A DNA stretch of 27,897 nucleotides from IMG/VR virus record IMGVR_UViG_3300032820_000082, positions 1-27,897 of that record; one strand, written 5' to 3'. The notes beneath the pieces were generated by a model. It ran no database searches and was not told the DNA's origin. It worked only from the letters and a program-made list of their open reading frames with translations. Below are positions 13,195 to 27,017 of this stretch, piece by piece. The position numbers and the translations under genes are program-made. Source of the stretch: a virus. Within the stretch, counting starts at the first letter, position 1, and each line of letters starts with the position of its first letter.

Positions 13195-14673
13195 ATGCCG
13201 CAATATTCCGGCTTTGTCTACGGGTCAAACGAACAGCAGAGCCCGTGGGCTGACTGTGAGCGCACGGTCAACTGGTACCCCGAGCCGACCCAGGCGTCGT
13301 CGTCGCCACACGTCGCTGCGCTCTATCCCTGTCCCGGACAGGAGGAGTATGTCCGGGTCGGTGACATCAATGGTCGCGCCCTCTTCGCCATGTCGGGCAA
13401 CTGCTACGCCCTGATGGGGTCGAGCCTCTACAGGGTGCTTGAAACGGCCACCGCGTCGATTGTCACGGACGGGACAGGGGTCACCAATGACCCCAATCCC
13501 GCAAGCATTGCGAGCAATGGGGACGGTGGCGGCCAGATTCTGATCGGCTCTGGGACGAACGGGTACCTGTTGACGATTGCGACCAATACACTCAGCGCAT
13601 CGATCAGCGCGCTCGCCGGGAAATGCACGATGGTCGGCATGATCGATGGCTACTTCTTGTCCTTCGACAGCGCCGAATCCAAATTTTACATCTCTGCTTT
13701 GAACAACGGCGCAAGCTGGGACGCCACACAGTATGCCCAGCGCAGCATTGCCCCAGACCCCTGGAAGGCGATGGTCGTGGACGGCAATCGTCAGATTTGG
13801 CTCATTGGCGAACAGACGGGCGAGGTCTGGTACGACGCTGGGACGAGCCCGTTTCCCTTCGCGCCCGTGCCGGGGTCGGTGTTTGGCTATGGCACATCGG
13901 CACCGTATTCAGTCAAACTGGCTGGCGACAAAATGGTCTGGCTCTCCCAGACGGCAGAGGGCGCGGGGATTGTCGTCGCCGCGACCGGCCTGGTTCCACA
14001 GCGGGTCAGTTCGTACGCGGTCGAGACCGCCATCGCCGGCTATGCCAGAACCAGCAAAATCACCGACGCGGAAGCCGTCGTCTACAGCGACCAGGGCCAT
14101 CTTTTTTACTGCCTGACGTTTCCAGCGGCCCAGGCGACCTGGGTCTTCGACCTCTCGACGGGTCTCTGGCACGAGCGAGGCGTCTGGGATGTGAGCAGTG
14201 GCAGTTATGCGATGTGGGGACCGCGCAGCCACTGCTATGCGTTTGGCAAGCATCTCGTCGCTGACCGCACCACGGGACTCATCTGCTCGATGGATACCGC
14301 CTTCACGACGGAATGCAACGGTGACCTGATTCGTCGGCTGCGCGTGCCGCCTCCGCTCTGGCTGCAAGCGGGGGCCGCACGTCGCCTCTTTGTCTCTCGT
14401 CTGGAGCTGTTGCTGGAACCGGGTCTCGGTGCCGTCTCTGGGCAGGGCGTCGATCCCCAGGTCATGATGCGGACGAGTACGGACCTCAAGACGTGGAGTA
14501 ATACGCAGCTCGCTGCGGCCGGGGCGCAGGGGACGTTTGGCACGCGGGTGTATTGGACGCGACTGGCGAGCTCCGACCGTGCCTGGGTGCCAGAAGTGAC
14601 GGTCACTGATCCGATTCCCTGGCGGATTGTGGGGGCCAACGTGGAAGGACGCAACATCCAAGGACGGGACTGA
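13195..14673 (+). CDS. P22 gp10-like packaged-DNA stabilisation (tail nozzle) protein
   Basis: The 492-residue protein has the typical start of this family: a short N-terminus, then CERTVNWYPEP (residues 21-31). A repetitive beta-propeller-like body follows with motifs such as GRALFAMSGNCYALMGSSLYRVL, QIWLIGEQTGEVWYDAG and DLSTGLWHERG. P22 gp10 is 472 residues and forms the hexameric nozzle below gp4 that holds packaged DNA and carries the tail spikes. Length, order and motifs agree. It starts two bases after the gp4-like gene. Its stop (TGA 14671-14673) lies four bases before the next chosen start. Confidence 0.88.
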   Translation: MPQYSGFVYGSNEQQSPWADCERTVNWYPEPTQASSSPHVAALYPCPGQEEYVRVGDINGRALFAMSGNCYALMGSSLYRVLETATASIVTDGTGVTNDPNPASIASNGDGGGQILIGSGTNGYLLTIATNTLSASISALAGKCTMVGMIDGYFLSFDSAESKFYISALNNGASWDATQYAQRSIAPDPWKAMVVDGNRQIWLIGEQTGEVWYDAGTSPFPFAPVPGSVFGYGTSAPYSVKLAGDKMVWLSQTAEGAGIVVAATGLVPQRVSSYAVETAIAGYARTSKITDAEAVVYSDQGHLFYCLTFPAAQATWVFDLSTGLWHERGVWDVSSGSYAMWGPRSHCYAFGKHLVADRTTGLICSMDTAFTTECNGDLIRRLRVPPPLWLQAGAARRLFVSRLELLLEPGLGAVSGQGVDPQVMMRTSTDLKTWSNTQLAAAGAQGTFGTRVYWTRLASSDRAWVPEVTVTDPIPWRIVGANVEGRNIQGRD

Positions 14674-14676
14674 TGG

Positions 14677-15162
14677 ATGCTCAGCATAGCGCCGACACCG
14701 GAAGTCGTAGTCGAGCCGGCCGTCGTGGAGCGCCGGATCTCGGGGCGCGTCACACAGGTGATGCGGTACTGGCTGCTCTCGATGGTGGACCGGTTGAACG
14801 CCACGCCGCAGACGCTGGACACCGTGCAGCTCTCCACGCAGGCGGCATCGATCAGCGCGACGAATTTTGCGATCCTGTCGGTGTCACCAGGCGTGTATCG
14901 GCTCTCGATGGGAGCCAGGATTTCCCGAGCGGCGACGACCAGCTCGTCCCTGACCGTGACGTTCGGGTGGACCGCGTCGGCAGTTGCTTGCACGACGAGC
15001 AGCACGGCGATGACGGGGAACACGACCGCGACCGTGGGCACTCTGACGATCCTGGTGCGCGTGGACGAGGCGACGGCGATCACGTATGCGACGACCTACG
15101 CGAGCGCGGGGGGCACGACGATGCAATACAGCCTGGACGTGTCGTGCGAGCAGCTCGTGTAA
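14677..15162 (+). CDS. Beta-rich virion protein at the P22 tail-needle position
   Basis: The 161-residue product has a short N-terminal helical segment (VERRISGRVTQVMRYWLLSM) and then a Thr/Ser/Val-rich beta domain with YRLSMGARISRAATTSSS, VTFGWTAS, TGNTTATVGTL and ITYATTYASAGGTTMQYSL in consecutive strands. Phage proteins of this type are common next to tail genes and are usually uncharacterised structural proteins. In P22 this position after gp10 is taken by the tail needle gp26, but no long coiled coil is visible here, so I do not call it a needle. An overlapping frame from 14673 is open through this gene but gives a low-complexity product. Confidence 0.65.
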   Translation: MLSIAPTPEVVVEPAVVERRISGRVTQVMRYWLLSMVDRLNATPQTLDTVQLSTQAASISATNFAILSVSPGVYRLSMGARISRAATTSSSLTVTFGWTASAVACTTSSTAMTGNTTATVGTLTILVRVDEATAITYATTYASAGGTTMQYSLDVSCEQLV

Positions 15163-15599
15163 TCCGACCGGCCACGCTTGCGGATGTGCCGGCCCTGGTC
15201 GTGATGGGGCAGCAGTTTGCCCAGACAGAGATGTATCGGGATGTGCTGCGCGAGAACCCTGAGCAGATGGCAATTGTCGCGACGAACCTCATTGAGGATG
15301 AGAGCGGGACGGTGCTGGTCCTTGAGCGAGACGGCGTCCTGATGGGCATGATCGGACTCGTCTGCACTCCGCATTTCCTGTCTGGCGACATGTATGCTGG
15401 TGAGGTGTTCTGGTGGGTCACGCCGGGACAGCGCGGTGACGGGGTCCGACTCCTGCGCTCGGCGGAATCGTGGGCCATCGAGCGCGGGGCCAAGACGCTA
15501 CAGATGATCGCCCCCACCGAGCGCGTCGGACAGTTCTACGCCCGGATGGGATTTCGAAGGACGGAAATCTCCTACCAGAAGGAGTTAGTGGCATCATGA
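15144..15599 (+). CDS. GNAT-family N-acetyltransferase
   Basis: This is a 151-residue GCN5-related acetyltransferase, which transfers acetyl from acetyl-CoA to an amine. The fold starts with IRPATLADVPAL (residues 7-18). Beta strands LVLERDGVLMGMIGLV (58-73) and AGEVFWWVTP (85-94) lead to the acetyl-CoA loop around QRGDGVRLL (96-104), with its R97 and G100 placement. IERGAKTL and FYARMGFRR (131-139) end the fold. The best start keeping the first strand is GTG 15144, overlapping the previous gene by 19 bases; ATG 15204 would cut into the fold. Its stop overlaps the next gene as ATGA. The substrate is unknown. Confidence 0.85.
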   Translation: MRAARVIRPATLADVPALVVMGQQFAQTEMYRDVLRENPEQMAIVATNLIEDESGTVLVLERDGVLMGMIGLVCTPHFLSGDMYAGEVFWWVTPGQRGDGVRLLRSAESWAIERGAKTLQMIAPTERVGQFYARMGFRRTEISYQKELVAS

Positions 15600-16270
15600 A
15601 GTCGGCGGTGCTCGCAGCGGAAGCATTGACCGCGCAGGTCTCACATCGTCTGATGGCGCTGGCGGAGGAGCGCCTGGTGCCGCATGAGGCGTCCGAGGGC
15701 ACCGAGGTGGTCCCGGACATCCGCGTCTATGACAATGTCTTGCCGGACCCGGAGGGCTATCGTGCGTTGGCGTTAGCGCATGCGTTCCGCACGTTTACCA
15801 TCGGCAATGTGGAGTGGCGTGGGTTCGCTGAGTGTGAGCCATCCGGTCTGACGGACTGGTTGCAGGACCGGCGTCCAGACCTGACGGCGACGTTGTCATT
15901 GCTAAGGCAGAGCCCCAAGGGTCAAGCGGAGCCTCACTACATCCACACAGACCGGAGCATGGGGGACTGGACGGCTATCTTGTATTTGACGCCGTCTCCC
16001 AAAGCAGGGGACGGGACCGACTTTTGGCGACACCGCTGGTCAGGTGTCACGGAAAGCCGTGCTGAATCCGCGACTGAAATGGCGCAGGAATCACAGGCAT
16101 GGAGTGACCGGGATCAATGGTCCCTGCGGCTACACGTCGCGTCCCGGTTCAATCGCGTGGTCCTGTTCCCGGCGGAATACTTCCACTCCCGTGCCCTGTA
16201 TGAGAACTATGGGGATGGCGACACGGCCCGATTAACGCAGATCGTGTTCTGCGAGAAGAAGGACACATAA
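15596..16270 (+). CDS. 2-oxoglutarate/Fe(II)-dependent oxygenase-like protein
   Basis: The 224-residue product has the metal and cosubstrate ligands of this superfamily: H117 and D119 in HYIHTDRSMGDWTAILYL broken at the turn, distal H197 in FPAEYFHSRALYEN, and R212 in TARLTQIVF. GTDFWRHR (140-147) lies where such enzymes cover the active site. Members hydroxylate proteins, nucleic acids or small molecules using 2-oxoglutarate and O2. Phage relatives resembling uncharacterised DUF families are common in aquatic viruses. It overlaps the acetyltransferase stop (ATGA), with AAGGAG further upstream, so the two enzymes are made together. Whether it acts on a virion protein, host protein or metabolite is unknown. 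Confidence 0.82.
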   Translation: MKSAVLAAEALTAQVSHRLMALAEERLVPHEASEGTEVVPDIRVYDNVLPDPEGYRALALAHAFRTFTIGNVEWRGFAECEPSGLTDWLQDRRPDLTATLSLLRQSPKGQAEPHYIHTDRSMGDWTAILYLTPSPKAGDGTDFWRHRWSGVTESRAESATEMAQESQAWSDRDQWSLRLHVASRFNRVVLFPAEYFHSRALYENYGDGDTARLTQIVFCEKKDT

Positions 16271-16847: not shown

Positions 16848-18656
16848 ATGGCGAGTAACGACAACCGAATCCGGCAGGCATACAACGAGTATTTGGGGCG
16901 TCCCGCGTCAGCATCAGAGGTCGAGGGATGGGTGTCTGGCCGCTACCATGGAGGCGGAATCGATGACTGGGTGCAAGCGATCCGCAACTCTGGAGAGGCA
17001 CAAACCTATGCGGCACGTCAGCGTGCAGAGACTGCGCCTCGGGTGACATCGAACGTGCCGGACCTGGAGGAGTTTGATCCGGGTCCGCCCCCCATTGATC
17101 CTGGCAGCGAGCAGCCGGACGCTCCGCCACCGTATGAACCGCCTGGATCGAGAGACCTGGATCGCGAACGGGCGAGAGATGCATTGCAGGCGGCGTACCG
17201 CGACCATCTTGATCGAGAGATGTCCGAGGCGGACTTTGAGGGCTGGTGGTCGGGACAGTATGGCTGGGGACCAAGAGGGATTGAGGGGCTTCCTGGCTGG
17301 CTGCGTGGCATCAAGCACGAGGGAGACCGGCTGAAAGGGGAAGACAAAAAAGAGGACCCTGCCGGCGTACCGCAAAGAACAGGCCCAGCCCCGCCTGGGT
17401 GGGACCAGGCGAAGTGGGCGGACCCAGACCATCACACCGTCAAGTACGACGCGGCCGCGTTCCTCTACGGTCTCACCAAGCCGTCAGAGATTGCCGCGAT
17501 GGTGAACAGTGCCGAGTTTCAGGCGCGGTTCCCCGGAGCCACCTTCAACGACAAGGACAAGATCGATTTCGGCAGCGTGACTGAAGACGGTGTCCCGGTT
17601 GGGGTGGTTGACGTACTCATGCGCGCCGATCAGGGAGGGGATACCTCGGCTGGATTATGGTGGGGTGCGGGACCGACCGGAGGAGCGACAGGACCGACCG
17701 GACCAGCAGCGCCCGGACCAGCAGCGCCCGGACCAGCAGCACCCGGACCAGCAGCGACCGGACCAACAGGACCCGCAGCGACCGGAGGATGGACGCCCGA
17801 CGCCTGGGCCGCAGCACTTGTCAATGCCCAGGGTGGGAGCCCGTTACTCAATCCGGCCGCGACACAGGGACCGCCGAGTATGGGCTATGGTGGCATGGGA
17901 CCGGGCGGTGGCGGCGGCACGATGGGGCAGATGATTACCCCCTACAATCCGCTCGCGACCTACAGCCCCGTGCCATATGTCCCGCCGGCTCCATTCCGAC
18001 CGCCGGCTTACGAGGGCGCCACGCCGTTCGAACAAGATCCCTACGCGGCTGCGACCCCGTTCGTCGGTCCAACGGCTGCGGACATGACCGCAGACCCTGG
18101 CTACCAGTTCCGGCTGCGGCAGGGACAAGAGGCACTGGAGCGCAGCGGTGCGGCACGCGGGGTCACGAATACCGGTGGCACCCTGCGGGACATTCTGGAC
18201 TACGGACAGCAAGCCGCGAGCCAGGAATACGGCAACGTGTTCGGACGGCAGCGGGACGTGTACGACCTCAACGAACGTAACCGGTTTAACGCCTACCAGG
18301 CGAACTATGGCAACGCGATGGACGCCTATAACCTGAACGAGCGAAACCGGGCTGGGGCGTTCACCACCAACGTCGCCAACGCCAGAGACGCCTACGCGAT
18401 GAACCAGGCGAATCGTTTTCAGGGTTATCAGACGAACGAGTTAGCGCGGTGGCAAGAGAACCAGGAAGCGGAGGCGCGTCGGTCTGGTGCGTATGGCGCG
18501 AACCTGGGTGCCTACGAGCGACAGCAACAGTACGGGCTGCGAGCGCAGGACCAGCAGTTCAACCAGGCGTTCCGGAACTGGCAGGAACAGTACAACCAGG
18601 GCCGGATGAACGCGACGGATACCTATAACCGCATGTACGGGTTGAGCACCACATAA
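16848..18656 (+). CDS. Multi-domain ejection-type virion protein
   Basis: The 602-residue protein has two short helical modules at its start, about residues 4-52 (AYNEYLGRPASASEVEGWV) and 108-163 (AYRDHLDREMSEADFEGWW), related in pattern to DUF4214-type repeats. A mixed domain and a Pro-Gly-Ala pentapeptide linker (about 275-314) follow. Then comes a segment beginning YQFRLRQGQEALERSGAARG (about 418), a pattern recurrent in phage DNA-ejection proteins. The C-terminus is Asn/Tyr/Gln-rich and contains three 22-residue repeats (472-537). GAGAGGGAGA lies upstream of ATG 16848. Probably a head-internal protein released during infection; tail attachment is the alternative. Confidence 0.72.
   Translation: MASNDNRIRQAYNEYLGRPASASEVEGWVSGRYHGGGIDDWVQAIRNSGEAQTYAARQRAETAPRVTSNVPDLEEFDPGPPPIDPGSEQPDAPPPYEPPGSRDLDRERARDALQAAYRDHLDREMSEADFEGWWSGQYGWGPRGIEGLPGWLRGIKHEGDRLKGEDKKEDPAGVPQRTGPAPPGWDQAKWADPDHHTVKYDAAAFLYGLTKPSEIAAMVNSAEFQARFPGATFNDKDKIDFGSVTEDGVPVGVVDVLMRADQGGDTSAGLWWGAGPTGGATGPTGPAAPGPAAPGPAAPGPAATGPTGPAATGGWTPDAWAAALVNAQGGSPLLNPAATQGPPSMGYGGMGPGGGGGTMGQMITPYNPLATYSPVPYVPPAPFRPPAYEGATPFEQDPYAAATPFVGPTAADMTADPGYQFRLRQGQEALERSGAARGVTNTGGTLRDILDYGQQAASQEYGNVFGRQRDVYDLNERNRFNAYQANYGNAMDAYNLNERNRAGAFTTNVANARDAYAMNQANRFQGYQTNELARWQENQEAEARRSGAYGANLGAYERQQQYGLRAQDQQFNQAFRNWQEQYNQGRMNATDTYNRMYGLSTT
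17701..17775 (+). repeat. 15-bp coding repeats giving a Pro-Gly-Ala linker
   Basis: Five head-to-tail 15-bp units (17701-17715, 17716-17730, 17731-17745, 17746-17760, 17761-17775) encode a GPAAP-type pentapeptide. The first two are identical and the others differ by one to a few bases. The product is a flexible linker between the N-terminal modules and the ejection-like half. Such direct repeats are prone to copy-number change by slippage. Confidence 0.85.
18261..18458 (+). repeat. Three 66-bp imperfect coding repeats
   Basis: Units at 18261-18326, 18327-18392 and 18393-18458 encode 22-residue repeats with the shared pattern Y-x-x-N-x-x-NR (YDLNERNR, YNLNERNR, YAMNQANR). Each is followed by a Tyr/Asn/Ala-rich stretch ending near DA or an acidic residue. 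The even period suggests a repeated helical hairpin or rod in the virion protein. Confidence 0.75.
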
Positions 18657-20212
18657 TGCCGTTTCAATACCGACCTCATCAGAACCGCTATGTCGGGTCC
18701 ATTACCGACCTTATGGGTCGTGGACGTGATGCCGAGGCCCAGGCGCTGATCACGGCTGCGAACGCACAGGCCCAAGCGGCTCAGGCCAGCGGGCAGGCGT
18801 GGGGCGGGGCGATCCAGAGCATTGGCAATACCGTCGCGGCGATCCCGGGGCAACTACAGGCGCAGCAGGACCGTGCGAGGACACTGAAGGCAGAAGAGGC
18901 GGCTACAGCCCTTACACAGGCGCGGACTGATACGCTCAGAGCAGAGGATCGTCGCAGGATTACCGACGATGCGACTAAAGCCAATGAGGCTATCCGTATC
19001 AATGCCGTGTTCGGGAACCCAGATTGGAGCCCGCAGGACTTCGTTGCCATTGCGGGTCCAGATCGTGGAATGAAGATTGCCGAAGCGTGGCATGGACTAC
19101 AGAACCCTCCAACTGATTATTTGAGTCCAGATGAGCAGGGCGAGTATTTACGCAAAACAGCTCTGGGGTTTAACGCTTTGCCAGAGGCGTTAAAGCCCGA
19201 GAACTGGGCTGCTGCGCGTCAGGCGTTATTGGGTAATCCCAACCTGCAAATACCAGAAGGCAGTATTCCGATTGAGTTTGACCAAGTGTGGTTGGATCAG
19301 GCCATAGCCTTTGGTCAGGACCCGGCAGGAAGCACGCAGCGTGGAGCGGGAACTGACTATAGGTCCTACCTGGAAAGGGTCGCTCAGGGTCTCGGGGTTC
19401 CAGTTGCCCAGCTCACGCCAGAACAGGAGCTAGACGCAAGGCGACAGTACACGGCGGCCGGTTCATCACAAGCGCCACTACTGGGTCGGGAGGCAGACAG
19501 GGAGACAGCTCGGGTAATCGCTGAGGCGGTGACCAAGGGTGAACAGCCGCCTACCATGACCGGGCTGCGTAAATTTACTGGTCTAGTGCGCGAGGAGATG
19601 GCGAAGCTGGGTTACGACCTGACTGAAGCCACGCAGGACTGGAACGCGATGGGCAAGCATATAAGCACGCTGAACAGCGCGGGTCAGTTGCGTATGCGGC
19701 AGGCCACCACGTTTGCGTATCATTCCTTGGACCTTGTTGAGAAATTCGCCAATGAGTGGGATGCTGGGGGATTCCCCACATTGAACAAGATTCGGATGCA
19801 GTCGGCAATGGAGGGGGTGCTTGGGCCAGAAGCGCAGCGCATTGCCACCAACCTCAATTCTACCATTACAGACCTTGTATCTGAATTGGCGACGGTCTAC
19901 CGTGGGGGGCTCTCTTCGACCGATTCAAGTATTGCGCTCGCGGCTGAGAACCTGAAGACCGAATGGTCTCATGAGGTGCTGCTCTCTGGCATCCAGTTGA
20001 TGCGAGACACGTTACAGATACGGCTCAATTCTATCAACACCACAGGCGTGGCGGGGACGCCCTATAATCGGTATTCGAGAGACTCTGTCCCGGTTGATGA
20101 CGTGCCCGTTGGAGGCGTTGAGATGCTCGCGCCTGACGGGGTAGAGTCAATCGTGGTCCCACCAGAAGATGTAGAACACTATGAACGCCAAGGGGCAACA
20201 AGGGTTCGGTAA
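18656..20212 (+). CDS. Candidate DNA-ejection / internal virion protein, 518 residues
   Basis: The N-terminal 110 residues form an Ala/Gln-rich amphipathic and coiled-coil region (QALITAANAQAQAAQASGQ, then QAQQDRARTLKAEEAATAL). A long mostly helical body follows without a recognisable catalytic motif. The segment ITDLMGRGRDAEAQ after a short aromatic opening recurs in ejection proteins of podoviruses. Its ATG overlaps the previous stop and its own stop overlaps the next ATG (both TAATG), so three large proteins are translated in sequence. In P22 the three ejection proteins gp7, gp20 and gp16 occupy the same place. No direct homologue can be named from sequence reading alone. Confidence 0.68.
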   Translation: MPFQYRPHQNRYVGSITDLMGRGRDAEAQALITAANAQAQAAQASGQAWGGAIQSIGNTVAAIPGQLQAQQDRARTLKAEEAATALTQARTDTLRAEDRRRITDDATKANEAIRINAVFGNPDWSPQDFVAIAGPDRGMKIAEAWHGLQNPPTDYLSPDEQGEYLRKTALGFNALPEALKPENWAAARQALLGNPNLQIPEGSIPIEFDQVWLDQAIAFGQDPAGSTQRGAGTDYRSYLERVAQGLGVPVAQLTPEQELDARRQYTAAGSSQAPLLGREADRETARVIAEAVTKGEQPPTMTGLRKFTGLVREEMAKLGYDLTEATQDWNAMGKHISTLNSAGQLRMRQATTFAYHSLDLVEKFANEWDAGGFPTLNKIRMQSAMEGVLGPEAQRIATNLNSTITDLVSELATVYRGGLSSTDSSIALAAENLKTEWSHEVLLSGIQLMRDTLQIRLNSINTTGVAGTPYNRYSRDSVPVDDVPVGGVEMLAPDGVESIVVPPEDVEHYERQGATRVR

Positions 20213-22158
20213 TGGCACAACAGAGTTGGTTTGAACGCAATGCGCCGGTTCGGCCCCAAACGCCGCCAGTCGAACCCACGGAACCGGTGTCTAGTGGATG
20301 GTTCGAGCGGAGTTCCCCGGAGGCCGTCAGGCCGCCAGACCCCGCTCAAGCACCCCGTCGGCCAGCGGTGATCCGGGCGGGACCGGGAGACCGCAACTAT
20401 CGCTTCCCGGCCGATATAAAACAGGGCGGCCGCCGTTTTGTGACTGAAGCCGTGCGGGGTGCTGGCCTGCACCCTACTGATCTACGCACCGCCTTTGATG
20501 AGGCAATGAGCAACCCCGGTCTCGTTCTTGACATTGTCTCTGGGATGGCCGAGGGGGCGAAGGGTCAGGTCATGAAGTCGTGGGAGGCGCTCAAGACGGG
20601 CCGACCAGGCGATGCCCTTGGACATCTCATCTATGCTGCGGTGCCAGGGATTGGACCCGCGCTCGACCAGGCGACTGAAGATTACAAACGTGGGGACACG
20701 GCCGGGGCATCTGGTCGTATCGCGGGCATTTTTCTGTCCCTCGGGGCTGGAGCACTGGGGAGTGCGCGCACACCGCCCTTCCCGGGCCTCCGCAACAAGA
20801 ATCCCGTGCAGCGCCAAGCCATAGCGTATGCCGAGCGCGAGGGCATCCCGGTGGATCTGGCAACCGCGTCTGGGAATCGGGCGGTGCGTAGTTGGCAGGA
20901 AGGGATGGAGTTTACCCCTGGTGGCATGCTTGTCGAGGCAGTGAAGAGTCCACCACGGGTGCAAGCCTTGCGTCAGTCGGCGCAGCGGCTCGCTGATGAT
21001 GTGTCCCCGGCACCTGTTTCGCCAGAGGCGTGGGGCACTACCGCGAGGGACCGCGTGACGCAAGCACGCGAAGGCTACACGGCCATCGCGGACGAGGCGT
21101 ATCCCGCGTTCCGTGCCGCCACCGAGGGATCCGGCCAACTCGTGGATATTGCCAAGGTTCTCGCAAGCGATCCGATGCAAAAGCTCTGGCGGCAACTGGA
21201 GAAGAAGAGGGCGGCCACTGGGGGGTTAGTGGGCCGCGAACTGCGAGCTTATTTGAAGATAAGCGATCTGCGCGACCTCCCGCCGGGGTTAGCTGACATC
21301 GGCGTCATTGACGATATTCTCGGAGACATGAAGTCGTATGCCCGCACAGAGCGTGGTCCCATAAAAGTGGTCGTGGGTGCCCTTGAGAAGCAAGTCCAAG
21401 CGGCCACAGCACTGGCGGGGCCAGAGGCGGTGGAGGCGCTCACTCGCGGCCGTGAGGCGATCAGGAACCGCGTGCGCGTCGATGCGGTCCTTGACGCGTT
21501 ACCAGATGAGCCCGTGAAGGTGTTCAACCGCTTTGTCACATCGGGGGGCACCAACATTGAGGGGTTACGTGAACTCGTCGAGATTGTTCCAGACCTCGCC
21601 CCCCAATTGGGACGTGCGTGGCTGGAGCGGCACCTGGACCCGGTACTGTCTGGTGGCGGATTCGAGAAGGCACAGACGTTCCGCAATAGTTATAACAAGC
21701 TCGACAAGAATACGAAGGCGATCATCTTTGGGGGCGCTGAGAACGTCAAGGCGATGGACAACTTCACCCAACTGACCGCGCAGATGGGGAAATTAGCTAA
21801 CCCGCCTGGGACCGCCGGTCAACTGATCGGGGCCGGGGCGTTCAGCACGGCGGCGGCCTATGTCAGAGAGAGCTACCCTGGCTATGCACTGCTCTCGCTC
21901 CTTACCCCAACGGTTCTTAGTGCTGTTTTCAAAAGCCCGACCGCGGTCAAGGCGCTGACGCAGGGATTGTCCATGGCGGCAGGACCAGGTCGTGGGACAT
22001 CGTCTGCGAGCAGGGCCGCGTCGGCGGCGGCACTCGAACTGGTGCGGGCAGCGGTGCGCGAGTCAGGGCAACCCCTGCCGCCAGCCCCCCTCCACAATCC
22101 CGACATGACGCCGAGGGAGTCACTATCGTTCACTCCCGAGATCATGCGCCGCCGTTAG
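20212..22158 (+). CDS. Candidate DNA-ejection / internal virion protein, 648 residues
   Basis: The N-terminus has a small duplication: WFER at residues 6-9 and again at 30-33, each followed by a Pro-rich spacer. The body is helical, with hydrophobic glycine-rich segments (IAGIFLSLGAGALGSA around 170, and about 534-573 with LIGAGAFSTAAAYV and YALLSLLTPTVLSAVF) that could insert in a membrane. No catalytic motif such as a lytic transglycosylase centre is seen. Its position as the last large gene before the fibre matches P22 gp16, and membrane-active segments suit a protein that helps DNA cross the inner membrane. The assignment is by position and composition. Confidence 0.68.
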   Translation: MAQQSWFERNAPVRPQTPPVEPTEPVSSGWFERSSPEAVRPPDPAQAPRRPAVIRAGPGDRNYRFPADIKQGGRRFVTEAVRGAGLHPTDLRTAFDEAMSNPGLVLDIVSGMAEGAKGQVMKSWEALKTGRPGDALGHLIYAAVPGIGPALDQATEDYKRGDTAGASGRIAGIFLSLGAGALGSARTPPFPGLRNKNPVQRQAIAYAEREGIPVDLATASGNRAVRSWQEGMEFTPGGMLVEAVKSPPRVQALRQSAQRLADDVSPAPVSPEAWGTTARDRVTQAREGYTAIADEAYPAFRAATEGSGQLVDIAKVLASDPMQKLWRQLEKKRAATGGLVGRELRAYLKISDLRDLPPGLADIGVIDDILGDMKSYARTERGPIKVVVGALEKQVQAATALAGPEAVEALTRGREAIRNRVRVDAVLDALPDEPVKVFNRFVTSGGTNIEGLRELVEIVPDLAPQLGRAWLERHLDPVLSGGGFEKAQTFRNSYNKLDKNTKAIIFGGAENVKAMDNFTQLTAQMGKLANPPGTAGQLIGAGAFSTAAAYVRESYPGYALLSLLTPTVLSAVFKSPTAVKALTQGLSMAAGPGRGTSSASRAASAAALELVRAAVRESGQPLPPAPLHNPDMTPRESLSFTPEIMRRR

Positions 22159-22177
22159 CGCATCGTAGGAGACATCC

Positions 22178-24421
22178 ATGGCAGGCACACTGACTCCCAC
22201 CCCGTATCAGACAGTTCTTGACGATGACGGGGTCGCGGTCTCCGGCGCGAAGGTGTATACCTACGAGGCCGGGACGACGACCAACGCGACGACGTATACG
22301 ACCTCGGCGCTGGACGTGGCGAACGCGAATCCGATTGTCGCGGACAGTGCCGGTCGGTATGTCGCCTACCTCGCCGCTGGCGCGAACCTGAGGTTTATCA
22401 TCAAGACCTCTGCTGATGTCACCATCGACGACCAGGACAATATCCAGTCGGTGCCGGGTGCCTCGGTCAACCTCGACCTTGAAGGCACGGTGGGCGAAGC
22501 CATCACGGCCGGACAGGTCGTCTATCTGTCGAGCGGAGCGGAAGCGTCTCCCCTGACGGCGGGGCTCTGGTATCTCACAGACTCGGATGCGGCTCCGACC
22601 AGTACGACCGCGCAGACTATCGGCGTGGCGGTGAGCGCCATTGCGATCAATACCTCGGGGACGATCCGTCTGGCTGGGCTGGTAACAACGGCCGGATCTG
22701 TCGTCGTGGGGACTACCTATTATGTCTCGGCGACACCCGGTGCGATCACCTCGTCAGCCCCCGCGCTATCACGACAGGTGGGCGTGGCGATGACGACCTC
22801 GACCCTGGTCCTGGCCGCCACGACGGTCGTGGCCGCGAGCATTCCTAACCCCATCAGCCAGGACCTGTTGTTCGTTGATAACACCTACGACATCGGCAAG
22901 TCGGGCGCGACCCGGCCTCGGGATCTCTTTACCTCTCGCAATGCCACGGTCGGGTCAGACATCGTCGTGAGCGGGACCGGCCCGCACGCGATTGGAGGAG
23001 CCACGGTTGACTATGTGCGGCTTGGTCTAGACGGCGCGTTTACGTCTGGGGGTGCGAGTACAGTCGCCTTTGGGACGTATACGAGTGGGGCGCTGACCGG
23101 GCATAGCGCAGACTCGGCTGCTATTGCTGGGGCCAAGCTGAACAATAGCGTGGTCACGGCTGGCAACTGCACGACCATCGCGCAGTTGTGGGTATCCGAA
23201 CCACAGATTACGGTCGGCTCTGGCACGGTGACGAACTCGGCCACCGTCTATATCGAATCCGCAGCCACCGAAGGAGGAACGGCGAATCATGCCCTCTGGG
23301 TCGATAGTGGATCGACGCGCCTGGACGGCACGCTGACCGTCGGTAGTACCGCCGCCGATGCGATTGACGTAGCGGGAGGGATCAATACCGGGAGCGGGAA
23401 CGTCGCCCTCGTGAATGCAGCGGGGAAAATTACGGCACTGTCTAGCACCGAAGTCGCTGATCTGAGTGGTGCCGCCCTCACGACACTGAATGCCTCCAAT
23501 ATCTCGTCAGGCACCCTGGCGAGTGCCCGACTCCCGACCAATGTGGATCTCGGTGGCACGCTGGATGTCACGGGCGCGACCACGCTTGACTCGACGCTTG
23601 GAGTGGTCGGTGCGGTCACGTTTAACGACGCTGCCGGAGATGTGAACCTCAGAGTCGAGACATCTGGCAACGAAAACATGCTGTTTGTGGATGGCGGAGA
23701 GGATCGTGTCGGGATTGGGACTGCGACTCCTGGTGCGGCGCTGGACATCTCACACGGCACAGGAGCACAACCGGCAACGTCTGGCGATGTCGCCACCAAC
23801 ACCGCGCTGAGGGTCAGCAATACCGGCGCAAACAACACAGTGCTGGATGTGGGTGCGGACTCGGCAACGCAGACCTCTTGGATTCAAAGTCGTAATCGTG
23901 GGAACTTAGCTGCAGGTGGAAGTTATGTGTATCCGATCCGCCTGAATCCCAACGGCGGCGATGTTCGGGTTGGTGCTGGTGTTACCTTCAACAACGACAC
24001 CGCTGCGGCGAACACCCTCGACGATTATGAGGAAGGCACATGGAGTCCTATCCCAAGGGGATCGACTGGTAGCGCCGGAACCGCCGCGGATAACATGAAT
24101 GGCAACTACACCAAAATCGGGCGCTTGGTCGTCGCTACCTGTTACGGAGTTTTGACGAATCTTGGATCGTGGACTGGGTCTTTTGAAGTTGCTGGCTGGC
24201 CATTTACCCATGGTGTCGGTCAAGTCACGCAGGGGTCCATCGGTCAATTTCCGTTCGGGACAGATGGAACGTCTGCCGGGTCGTGGAGGACGGTGATGTT
24301 TCCCGCAGGCGGCACGCATTGCAATTTTCGGGAGGGCTATAACATGGACACGGTGACACCCTATAGTCAGATTCACGGCACCGGGTTTGCCATCTCAGTG
24401 ACCCTCTCCTATTACGCCTAG
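22178..24421 (+). CDS. Tail fibre / receptor-binding protein
   Basis: The 747-residue protein starts with a phage head-binding-type domain (about residues 8-95: DDDGVAVSGAKVYTYEAGTT, then NPIVADSAGRYVAYLAAG and IDDQDNI). A long Thr/Ser/Gly/Ala-rich repetitive beta shaft follows with patterns such as GTLTVGST, LGGTLDVTGATTLDSTLG and DRVGIGTATPGAALDI, typical of trimeric phage fibres. The C-terminal tip (about 612-747) starts with LDDYEEGTWSP and YTKIGRLV, a tip pattern known in aquatic phage fibres. TAGGAGA lies eight bases before ATG. It should bind the host surface. No enzyme motif is visible, so a fibre is more likely than a depolymerising spike. Confidence 0.85.
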   Translation: MAGTLTPTPYQTVLDDDGVAVSGAKVYTYEAGTTTNATTYTTSALDVANANPIVADSAGRYVAYLAAGANLRFIIKTSADVTIDDQDNIQSVPGASVNLDLEGTVGEAITAGQVVYLSSGAEASPLTAGLWYLTDSDAAPTSTTAQTIGVAVSAIAINTSGTIRLAGLVTTAGSVVVGTTYYVSATPGAITSSAPALSRQVGVAMTTSTLVLAATTVVAASIPNPISQDLLFVDNTYDIGKSGATRPRDLFTSRNATVGSDIVVSGTGPHAIGGATVDYVRLGLDGAFTSGGASTVAFGTYTSGALTGHSADSAAIAGAKLNNSVVTAGNCTTIAQLWVSEPQITVGSGTVTNSATVYIESAATEGGTANHALWVDSGSTRLDGTLTVGSTAADAIDVAGGINTGSGNVALVNAAGKITALSSTEVADLSGAALTTLNASNISSGTLASARLPTNVDLGGTLDVTGATTLDSTLGVVGAVTFNDAAGDVNLRVETSGNENMLFVDGGEDRVGIGTATPGAALDISHGTGAQPATSGDVATNTALRVSNTGANNTVLDVGADSATQTSWIQSRNRGNLAAGGSYVYPIRLNPNGGDVRVGAGVTFNNDTAAANTLDDYEEGTWSPIPRGSTGSAGTAADNMNGNYTKIGRLVVATCYGVLTNLGSWTGSFEVAGWPFTHGVGQVTQGSIGQFPFGTDGTSAGSWRTVMFPAGGTHCNFREGYNMDTVTPYSQIHGTGFAISVTLSYYA

Positions 24422-24434
24422 TGGATGCTAGGCG
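24415..24434 (+). promoter_or_regulatory. Perfect hairpin spanning the fibre stop codon
   Basis: CGCCTAG (24415-24421) pairs perfectly with CTAGGCG (24428-24434) around a six-base loop. The TAG stop of the fibre gene lies in the left arm. No T-tract follows, so it is not a classical terminator. It ends 12 bases before the next ATG and could protect the fibre transcript, be a processing site, or limit ribosome access to the following gene. Confidence 0.5.
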
Positions 24435-24446
24435 TGGAAGGAAAAC

Positions 24447-24728
24447 ATGGCTATCACAAAAACAATCGTGCCAGACAAGATTGAGGTGCTGGAACTAGGT
24501 CCGGTGCAGGTGAGGACCGCCACGGTTATCGAGGAAGATGGCGTGGAATTGACGCGCACGTTTCACCGGCACGTACTTGTTCCCAGTGACAAGCGATCTG
24601 GTAGCTGGGAGGACACAGACATCTCTGGCGAAGATGCACGGGTGCAAGATATTTGCACTGCTGCATGGACACCCGAGGTCAAAGCCGACTACCAAGCGTG
24701 GCAGGATGCACTCAACTCGGGGTCATGA
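24447..24728 (+). CDS. Small conserved fibre-adjacent phage protein
   Basis: The 93-residue product opens with AITKTIVPDKIEVLE and continues with VQVRTATVIEEDGVELTRTFHR, a pattern seen in many small proteins of aquatic phages beside tail fibre genes. I know of no assigned function; fibre assembly or a minor tail component are possible. GGAAGG lies seven bases upstream of the ATG and its stop overlaps the next start as ATGA. The preceding hairpin may influence its translation. Confidence 0.7.
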   Translation: MAITKTIVPDKIEVLELGPVQVRTATVIEEDGVELTRTFHRHVLVPSDKRSGSWEDTDISGEDARVQDICTAAWTPEVKADYQAWQDALNSGS

Positions 24729-24973
24729 TCTCCATCTCCTGGGCCGAAGTCGCCGCAATTGTTACCGCGGTCTCCGTCATTACCGGCGCAGCCGCGACCT
24801 ACGTGCGCCTAGCCACCGTCAATGCGGTGCGGGAGATCCTCAACGAGCGACTCAAGGACTACATGGGGCGGGAACTGGTGGAAACCAGACTCCAGTATCT
24901 TGGAACCGAGATGAACTCGGTGCGGAAGGACATTGACTCCCTCACCCATATGGTGCAACAGCTCAAACAATGA
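24725..24973 (+). CDS. Small membrane protein with coiled coil, spanin-like candidate
   Basis: The 82-residue protein has one N-terminal membrane segment (WAEVAAIVTAVSVITGAAATYV, about residues 5-26, shown here as two pieces WAEVAAIVTAV and SVITGAAATYV). A charged helix with heptad character follows (REILNERLKDY, then EMNSVRKDIDSLTHMVQQLKQ). This is the layout of an inner-membrane spanin or a membrane-tethered lysis helper. ATG 24725 overlaps the previous stop (ATGA); the longer frame from 24653 is a shadow of that gene. No outer-membrane lipoprotein partner was found, so a different membrane role remains possible. Confidence 0.6.
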   Translation: MISISWAEVAAIVTAVSVITGAAATYVRLATVNAVREILNERLKDYMGRELVETRLQYLGTEMNSVRKDIDSLTHMVQQLKQ

Positions 24974-26442
24974 TGCCCCATTTAAATTATCTGTCTGCCA
25001 TCCGGCGTGCGCGGGAAGCATACCGTGCCCGATTGGATCGGGAGATTGACGATCACGGGCTGGCCTCGACGCTCCTGCTGCAACTGGAGCACGACTACAC
25101 CTATGATGATCTGATAGCCTGGATCGAGCGGAGCGCAGAGTACCGAGCGCGGGAGGTTCCGACCACCTCACCTACCTTGAACGCTGCCGCTCCGCTCCCT
25201 CCCCTCACGGGCCACCTGAGCGTGGATGGCATGGCCTATGTCGATGACACGGGCCGTCGCATCCCGCTGATGTGTCATGTCGGCGATCTCCTGATGTTGT
25301 TTGTCGAGGGGAGGCTGGAGAACGACAAAGAAAAAGAGCAGCGGGTCCATAACGCCTTCACCGACCTGCGCGATCATGGCTACAGCGGCTTGCGATCATG
25401 GTGGAGTATTCGGTGGGGAGATGAACCCAATGCCTACTGGGGGTCGCGTCGGCTGAATCCGTCTGACCACGCGCACCGGCAAATGATCGCAGAATGCCTA
25501 CGCATTGGGGCCGCAGACTATGGGCTCCAGTGGCATCTCGCCCTGGGGTCAGCGGCAGAGGTGTCTCCCCATGCGATGTCTGAAGCGTGGCACTGGCTGG
25601 GGGATATTGTGCAGGCACACCCCACCTGGTTTGCGCTGATTGAAGGCTTGAACGAGGCGTATCACAACGGGGAATCCGATCCAGAGGTGGTCGAGCGGTG
25701 GGTGAACATTTCCCGACACAAGACGCCAACCGTGCTGCACGCCCTCAGTGCTGCGGATGGGGCAGCGGGGAGTGAAGAAGCCGACGAACTCAAGAAGTGG
25801 ACCCCCAGTTGGCAACAGGTCTATCTCGTCCATGCGAGCCGTGCGAATCACTGGGGCGATCAGACGAGGCATGCCTTCTCCACAGGCTACAAACGAGCAC
25901 CACGGCGGCTGGGATGGAGCGGCGAACCACCGGGGATACAGTGGGGTGAACACACACGGGTCAGCGGCATGAATTATCCGGAGGAATGGACCCGCAATCC
26001 CTGGCGTTATGCGTTCTACCTGGCTGTCACGGCGCTGTCCCGGCAGGTGCCGACCTATATGTGCAGTCACGGCGTCTGTCTGGAGGGGCGTCTGCGCGAC
26101 GCACCAGGATTTGCCCTGGCTCCCCGCTTGATCAGCGATCTGCCGCCCGACCTGATGGCCTACGACGAACTGTTTCATGGGGGTGAGACCCACAAGCATC
26201 GGCGCGTGATCGAAGCCCCCGAGCACTGCCGCGCCGAGCATGCGAAACATGCGGACGGGTCCTGTGTCATCGCGGTCTACCCGGAGCGCCCTGGGATTAC
26301 CGAGATGGACCTGATCTTTGAGCGGCCATGGAGGGGGAGACTGCACGATGCCTATGGCTACACAGATATGGCGATTGCGCGGGGTGCGACGATCCGTCGG
26401 GACATCTCCAATGGCCTGCTGTGTGTTGGGGAGGTGCTCTGA
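24970..26442 (+). CDS. Clan GH-A-like glycoside hydrolase with N-terminal DUF4214-like module
   Basis: Residues about 8-62 form a short helical module (AYRARLDREIDDHG, then DDLIAWIERSAEYRARE) resembling the two at the start of the ejection-type protein at 16848. The rest looks like a TIM-barrel hydrolase: a first strand region VDGMAYVDDTGRRIPL (85-100), GYSGLRSWWSI (138-147), then HPTWFALIEGLNEAYHNG (217-234) with the clan GH-A Asn-Glu pair N228-E229 as acid/base. E319 in GWSGEPPG is a candidate nucleophile. It would cleave a polysaccharide, in the virion or at lysis; the substrate is unknown. It overlaps the previous gene (ATGA). Confidence 0.72.
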   Translation: MMPHLNYLSAIRRAREAYRARLDREIDDHGLASTLLLQLEHDYTYDDLIAWIERSAEYRAREVPTTSPTLNAAAPLPPLTGHLSVDGMAYVDDTGRRIPLMCHVGDLLMLFVEGRLENDKEKEQRVHNAFTDLRDHGYSGLRSWWSIRWGDEPNAYWGSRRLNPSDHAHRQMIAECLRIGAADYGLQWHLALGSAAEVSPHAMSEAWHWLGDIVQAHPTWFALIEGLNEAYHNGESDPEVVERWVNISRHKTPTVLHALSAADGAAGSEEADELKKWTPSWQQVYLVHASRANHWGDQTRHAFSTGYKRAPRRLGWSGEPPGIQWGEHTRVSGMNYPEEWTRNPWRYAFYLAVTALSRQVPTYMCSHGVCLEGRLRDAPGFALAPRLISDLPPDLMAYDELFHGGETHKHRRVIEAPEHCRAEHAKHADGSCVIAVYPERPGITEMDLIFERPWRGRLHDAYGYTDMAIARGATIRRDISNGLLCVGEVL

Positions 26443-26660: not shown

Positions 26661-27017
26661 ATGCCCCTGGCCTACAAGTCTGGCGTGCGCGTACGGACCA
26701 GGACGCTCGCCTTGGCGCACATCGAGAACAGCGCCCTCGCCACGCAGACTGAGCTGGGCTACCCCCGCGTGCTGGTGGCGACATCGATTAATGACAGTCG
26801 TCATATGGAAGGATCAAAACACTACACCGACGAGGCCATCGACTGGCGCACGAAGGGACCGGCCGCAAACACGATGGGATCTACTGCTCGCAAGCAGCGG
26901 TTCCGTCGCCGGCTGACGGCCCTACTGGGTGACCGGTTTACGGTGATGTTGGAAGGGCTCGGCAAGCCGCACGAGCATATCCATGTCCAGGTCAAAAAAG
27001 GAGCACATTATCCATGA
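26661..27017 (+). CDS. M15-like zinc peptidase, endolysin candidate
   Basis: The 118-residue protein has the metal-site pattern of the M15/hedgehog-type peptidases: H54 and D61 (SKHYTDEAIDW, spacing HxxxxxxD) and a C-terminal HEHIHVQV with H106 and H108, and E98 or E105 as possible catalytic base. Such enzymes cut peptide bonds in peptidoglycan stem peptides and serve as endolysins in some phages. It is short, so it is a single minimal catalytic domain with no cell-wall-binding part, as in phages of Gram-negative hosts. It sits in the lysis cassette between the coiled-coil protein and the holin candidate. Its stop overlaps the next ATG. Confidence 0.75.
   Translation: MPLAYKSGVRVRTRTLALAHIENSALATQTELGYPRVLVATSINDSRHMEGSKHYTDEAIDWRTKGPAANTMGSTARKQRFRRRLTALLGDRFTVMLEGLGKPHEHIHVQVKKGAHYP

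Follow-up and report, generated by a model that had tools for sequence, protein, structure and literature searches.

Divergent DUF4214-like modules on a predicted DNA-ejection protein and a glycosidase-like protein of a P22-type phage, and their possible role in binding the host envelope

The window analysed here, throughout by computational means, is the whole of a 27,897-base virus record (IMG/VR IMGVR_UViG_3300032820_000082), the gene set of which resembles that of a P22-type short-tailed phage, with terminase, portal, scaffold, major head protein, adaptor, and Hc3 head-closure protein. The region separating the neck protein from the ejection genes (14673-16270) encodes a GNAT acetyltransferase and a DUF6445/2OG-oxygenase-like protein, both retained in a sibling record, G004 (L139/L140), whose head genes are about 80-94% identical to those of the window. 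The ejection block consists of the ORFs at 16848, 18656, and 20212. Its second protein (18656..20212, + strand) is gp20-like in position and size, based on gene order, size, and a weak match to phrog_21132 (DNA ejection, E 0.032), while the third (20212..22158, + strand), for which no family match was found, is gp16-like in gene order and size only. In comparison with G004, these two proteins (18656-22158) and the C-terminus of the fibre-like protein (22178-24421) are largely replaced, in a pattern that resembles a host-range swap. Downstream of the fibre-like protein, the locus continues with a small putative membrane protein (24653), a putative glycosidase (24970), and an M15-peptidase-like ORF (26661). 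The latter (26661-27017) had no Pfam match, and its likeness to an M15-type peptidase endolysin comes from the motifs SRHMEGSKHYTDEAIDW and HEHIHVQ, judged by eye.

On the basis of its sequence, the product of the 16848 ORF is a P22-gp7-type protein, predicted to act in DNA ejection and carrying two clearly homologous N-terminal modules. Its gp7-like C-terminal part (residues 406-602; 18063..18653, + strand) matches phrog_598, annotated as 'DNA ejection', with an E-value of 8.6e-6, and the alignment of residues 410-554 to profile positions 83-223 of 240 identifies it as a homologous ejection domain; tblastn also matched this part to annotated ejection/DNA transfer proteins of podoviruses. The first module, w1, is of a short type (residues 4-55; 16857..17012, + strand), and the second, w2, is of a long type with a GWGPxGIEGL insertion (residues 103-163; 17154..17336, + strand). 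Their Smith-Waterman score of 86 was reached by none of 5000 shuffles. In AlphaFold models of 12 sequences each ejection module is helical, with a block pLDDT of about 70-89; the helices span residues 2-16, 22-29, 38-46, and 49-62 in the w1 region, and 99-121, 127-134, and 145-168 in the w2 region (pLDDT about 85). Relatives found in viral contigs have one module (L007, L008, and L013), two, three (L009), or four (L012), and between the copies there is often a long linker of low complexity, enriched in Pro, Gly, or Asp. The modules are followed, in the relatives as well, by a conserved domain (residues 187-272; 17406..17663, + strand; 74-91% identity in five relatives) that reads DPDHHTVKYDAAAFLYGL...FPGATF...DKIDFG...GVVDVLM, and to which no annotated phage record could be matched by tblastn at E<=1.

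The glycosidase begins with a single module, g (residues 5-60; 24982..25149, + strand), which is present in all six homologues available (the window protein and five relatives) and is predicted to form helices at residues 7-22, 28-41, 45-54, and 56-60. All three segments lie where the initial annotation had located them. The glycoside-hydrolase-like part (residues 77-490; 25198..26439, + strand), recognised through secondary-structure order, Foldseek, and invariant Glu residues, is a putative alternating beta/alpha barrel with a C-terminal beta domain. Two glutamates, E229 (GLNEAY) and E319 (SGEPPG), are invariant across the six homologues, and we infer a catalytic role for them. The structure model of this protein is poor (mean pLDDT 44), and from this low-confidence model the best Foldseek match was the PslG glycosyl hydrolase, over 80 columns only. 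What bears on a possible place in clan GH-A, with its barrel fold and two catalytic Glu, are the two invariant glutamates, the alternating beta/alpha order (from the same low-confidence model), and this partial PslG match. Pfam gave no match to a glycoside hydrolase family, a PDB sequence search found nothing, PslG included, no obvious signal peptide was seen, and no cellular relatives emerged from the genome collection scanned, although with a poorly chosen pattern. The small protein encoded immediately upstream (24653..24973, + strand) has an N-terminal hydrophobic stretch and a coiled coil, and overlaps the glycosidase start. In each of the five relatives, a copy 80-93% identical to this small protein lies immediately ahead of the glycosidase, and the small protein is possibly a functional partner of the enzyme.

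When the modules of the two proteins are compared directly, similarity is weak: the w1-g score was reached by 260-350 of 5000 shuffles (Smith-Waterman), the w2-g score by 62-147 of 5000, and an HMM of the ejection modules retrieved g with an E-value of about 7 only. Such direct pairwise scores (p about 0.01-0.07) would fit the idea that the resemblance arose by chance between short amphipathic helices. Both groups, however, independently pick DUF4214 (PF13946) as their best Pfam match (E 0.058 for the ejection set and 0.019 for the glycosidase set, both below the cut-off), with an alignment over the full module. Single-record searches with PF13946 gave E-values of 0.0013 for the glycosidase of L018 and 0.0066 for the ejection protein of L006. 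The curated cut-off of this family is 23.2 bits, and it was reached neither by any module in the window (g scored 15.4 bits) nor by any relative (13.4 bits for L018, 9.6 for L006), and for this reason we call these modules DUF4214-like, and not members of the family. BLAST searches of phage records with the modules themselves returned nothing credible, and PHROG scans gave chance-level matches only.

We then relied on a DUF4214 profile built from 25 modules of plasmid and phage records, with w1, w2, and g left out; these 25 were located through a bait consensus written from general knowledge, and confirmed by their PF13946 scores and by record annotation. Against this profile w1 scored 27.2 bits, w2 10.1, and g 11.3, values reached by none of 4000 full shuffles in any of the three cases, and, when the hydrophobic pattern was preserved, by 0, 3, and 0 of 4000 shuffles, respectively. 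Profile-profile comparison with hhalign, where E-values of single comparisons are not database-calibrated, yielded scores of 25-31 over 47-50 columns, which is the whole module, compared to 9 +/- 2 for permuted columns, and none of 150 column permutations reached the score of either the ejection or the glycosidase profile against DUF4214. Real helical sequence was used as well: an alignment of 19 unrelated phage proteins of tape-measure type, all DUF4214-bearing, was covered by 74 windows, and each profile was scored against them. The DUF4214 windows came out on top, with 40.8 for the short ejection modules (12.9 at most in other windows) and 27.7 for the glycosidase module (13.3 at most). The alignment to DUF4214 that the initial annotation had suggested as a check hence puts the link among the three segments far above chance, and the sharing of a module between ejection protein and glycosidase is confirmed, if indirectly, through this family. 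Judged from these profiles, w1, w2, and g are divergent DUF4214-like three-helix modules that fall below the Pfam curated cut-off, and a chance resemblance appears very improbable, being mostly refuted by scores well beyond those of shuffles that keep the helix pattern, of permuted profiles, and of decoys taken from real helical sequence.

The six best structure matches of the ejection N-terminus among BFVD viral models are all DUF4214 proteins (E from 4.6e-8), a result that is not fully independent because Foldseek scores sequence as well as shape; for g, the agreement with DUF4214 concerns helix order only, in a model of low pLDDT. Foldseek also returned sigma-factor matches for the ejection model, which were weak and which we took as chance helical matches.

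Two details that had been proposed as shared features fared less well. The LDRE tetrapeptide is indeed identical in two of the segments, but it is not ancestral: all five glycosidase relatives have LDRP, and ejection modules mostly have LGRE or LGRD, which also counts on the side of chance. We considered LDRE as a sign of copying from one gene to the other, and rejected this idea in view of the LDRP and LGRE of the relatives and of a g profile nearer to general DUF4214; as read from these alignments, the match is a coincidence. Similarly, the Trp residues do not occupy equivalent alignment positions: helix 2 of g lacks a Trp, and the Trp in its helix 3 is out of register with the one in w1.

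Whether the two carriers are tied to each other can be addressed through their occurrence in other phages. G004 (38 kb) shows synteny with the window over the full length of the permuted map. It retains one ejection module and has no glycosidase, the fibre and M15 genes flanking other small ORFs there. Conversely, the glycosidase and its upstream gene are also found in an unrelated phage background (L001, L002, and L018-L020, with the G007/L141 record among these), where in five relatives the glycosidase precedes an ORF of about 690 residues belonging to another phage lineage. In the longest of these records (G007, 18.4 kb), transglycosylase-bearing and internal-virion genes found further on indicate a structural gene block; no other module was found within this 18.4-kb fragment. 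Since the ejection module occurs in G004 without the glycosidase, and the glycosidase in an unrelated phage, a single docking site shared within this particle is not supported. In addition, the profile of g scores higher with hhalign against general DUF4214 (30) than against the ejection modules (19-24), so that g was probably recruited independently. Based on these comparisons, each of the two genes probably acquired the module separately, out of a pool widespread among phages and bacteria and not from the other gene, and the module is a general adaptor and no docking tag peculiar to this virion. The earlier interpretation thus holds as far as a helical module related to DUF4214 is concerned, but not as a common tag implying a single docking site in the particle.

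These arrangements bear on two other explanations. According to the first, the glycosidase serves in lysis or spreading, at a late stage or outside the particle, with its module targeting cell wall or capsule and unrelated to the ejection modules. The position of the gene between a putative membrane protein and an M15-peptidase-like ORF, in the fashion of a lysis cassette, and the presence of the same locus without glycosidase in G004, speak in its favour, while the large ORF that follows in five relatives, and the structural gene block of the longest record, do not. We regard this explanation as a tentative one; it concerns the glycosidase only, and can be compatible with either envelope binding or docking. 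According to the second, the modules would be virion-assembly docks that load the ejection protein and the enzyme through a common particle partner or through each other. Placement of tape-measure modules near the C terminus would suit such docks, as would phages with modules on two or three gene products (G023, G031, G033, G039, and G041, among others), and the recurrent match of w1 to solved structures of the phycobilisome linker domain (PF00427; Z 3-4 over about 59 residues, 3.2-3.6 A; E 0.02 by sequence). A Z of 3-4 for a small helical bundle, however, is within the range of a chance arrangement, and this weak similarity may reflect a common arrangement only. Furthermore, the two carriers do not obligatorily co-occur, module copy number is variable, and g shows no specific closeness to the ejection modules that occur in the same phage. 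We consider docking less likely than the envelope binding described below.

DUF4214 occurs widely among the secreted proteins of bacteria, with no function or ligand known to us; in the literature searched, no paper linking it to phage virion proteins was found. A pattern scan of viral contigs, some of which may be prophage or misclassified bacterial DNA, yielded 264 DUF4214-like loci, of which 80 were kept; these counts are not rates, because the pattern demands a near-consensus motif. A nine-sequence DUF4214 alignment was too varied to serve for such a scan. Many carriers are tape-measure proteins with modules close to the C terminus (15 of the 19 scanned match one tape-measure family), a single baseplate hub/tail-lysozyme family protein carries 12 modules, and 6 of 30 other carriers match a virion structural family. 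A metalloprotease-like protein, recognised by eye, bears C-terminal DUF4214 modules in L134:616-2001 (G031), a contig that also has a DUF4214 tape-measure-type protein. The distribution suggests that DUF4214-type modules serve phages as a shared means of attaching to the host envelope or of keeping parts of the virion together.

Our preferred reading, to which we assign a probability of roughly 0.5, is that these are host-envelope adhesion or anchoring modules, with a shared ligand such as glycan or peptidoglycan, as the initial annotation had offered among its options, being our best guess. The ejection protein would present a flexible N-terminal array of modules, variable in copy number and joined by Pro/Gly-rich linkers, ahead of its P22-gp7/T7-gp14-type ejection domain, and during or after ejection this array would tether the gp7-type protein to a polymer on the surface or in the periplasm of the host. 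In the glycosidase, a single module ahead of the glycoside-hydrolase-like part would keep the enzyme on its polymeric substrate, in the manner of a carbohydrate-binding module. Copy numbers of 1-4 on long low-complexity linkers are easier to reconcile with avidity-type binding than with a dock of fixed stoichiometry. Envelope binding is also favoured because the module of the enzyme diverges faster than its barrel-like region (50-61% versus 75-87% identity across relatives), because genuine DUF4214 is found on phage proteins active at the envelope or passing into it, and because bacterial DUF4214 is viewed as a likely surface-anchoring domain (PMC12780176). The resemblance to phycobilisome linkers weighs against it, as it points equally to protein-protein docking. 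A broader version, in which DUF4214-like modules are a general phage tool for a common envelope ligand, and hence an overlooked post-adsorption layer of host recognition, seems to us less likely than not; it would require repeated recruitment onto the first proteins to meet the envelope, such as tape-measure C termini, baseplate hubs, gp7-type pore proteins, and polymer-degrading enzymes. In any case, the occurrence of DUF4214 on tape-measure, baseplate hub, and ejection proteins, and on a phage enzyme, provides small modules for probing its ligand, and is a hint that envelope-binding parts may travel with ejected phage proteins.

In comparison with known systems, the modules share with DUF4214 the helix order, the Y-x3-L-[GD]-R motif, an S-x-E near the end, tandem repetition, and fusion to other extracellular or virion parts, and differ from it in the extra GWGPxGIEGL stretch of the long-type ejection module and in the lack of a helix-2 Trp in g. 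The tape-measure protein of Salicola phage CGphi29 (L021; PF13946 E 1.3e-3) is likewise a phage virion protein with the module, but DUF4214-bearing tape-measure proteins belong to long-tailed phages, carry the modules near the C terminus, and are usually nearer to the Pfam consensus. With the phycobilisome linker domain the likeness concerns the AYxxxLgR helix and a local helical arrangement of about 59 residues, whereas linker domains are protein-assembly domains of about 130-150 residues that act in light-harvesting complexes. PslG, an exopolysaccharide glycosyl hydrolase of Pseudomonas aeruginosa, resembles the glycosidase as its best structural match over the 80-column stretch, the barrel part of the model being too poor to compare, and we know of no DUF4214 module in PslG. 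Finally, the P22 gp7/T7 gp14-type ejection (outer-membrane pore) proteins are matched by the 16848 protein in its C-terminal, phrog_598-like part, and in size and order the three proteins of the ejection block correspond to gp7, gp20, and gp16 of P22 (PMC8954989). P22 gp7, however, is about 230 residues long (PMC8954989), and the protein described here differs from it in having an N-terminal extension of about 400 residues, which bears the modules.
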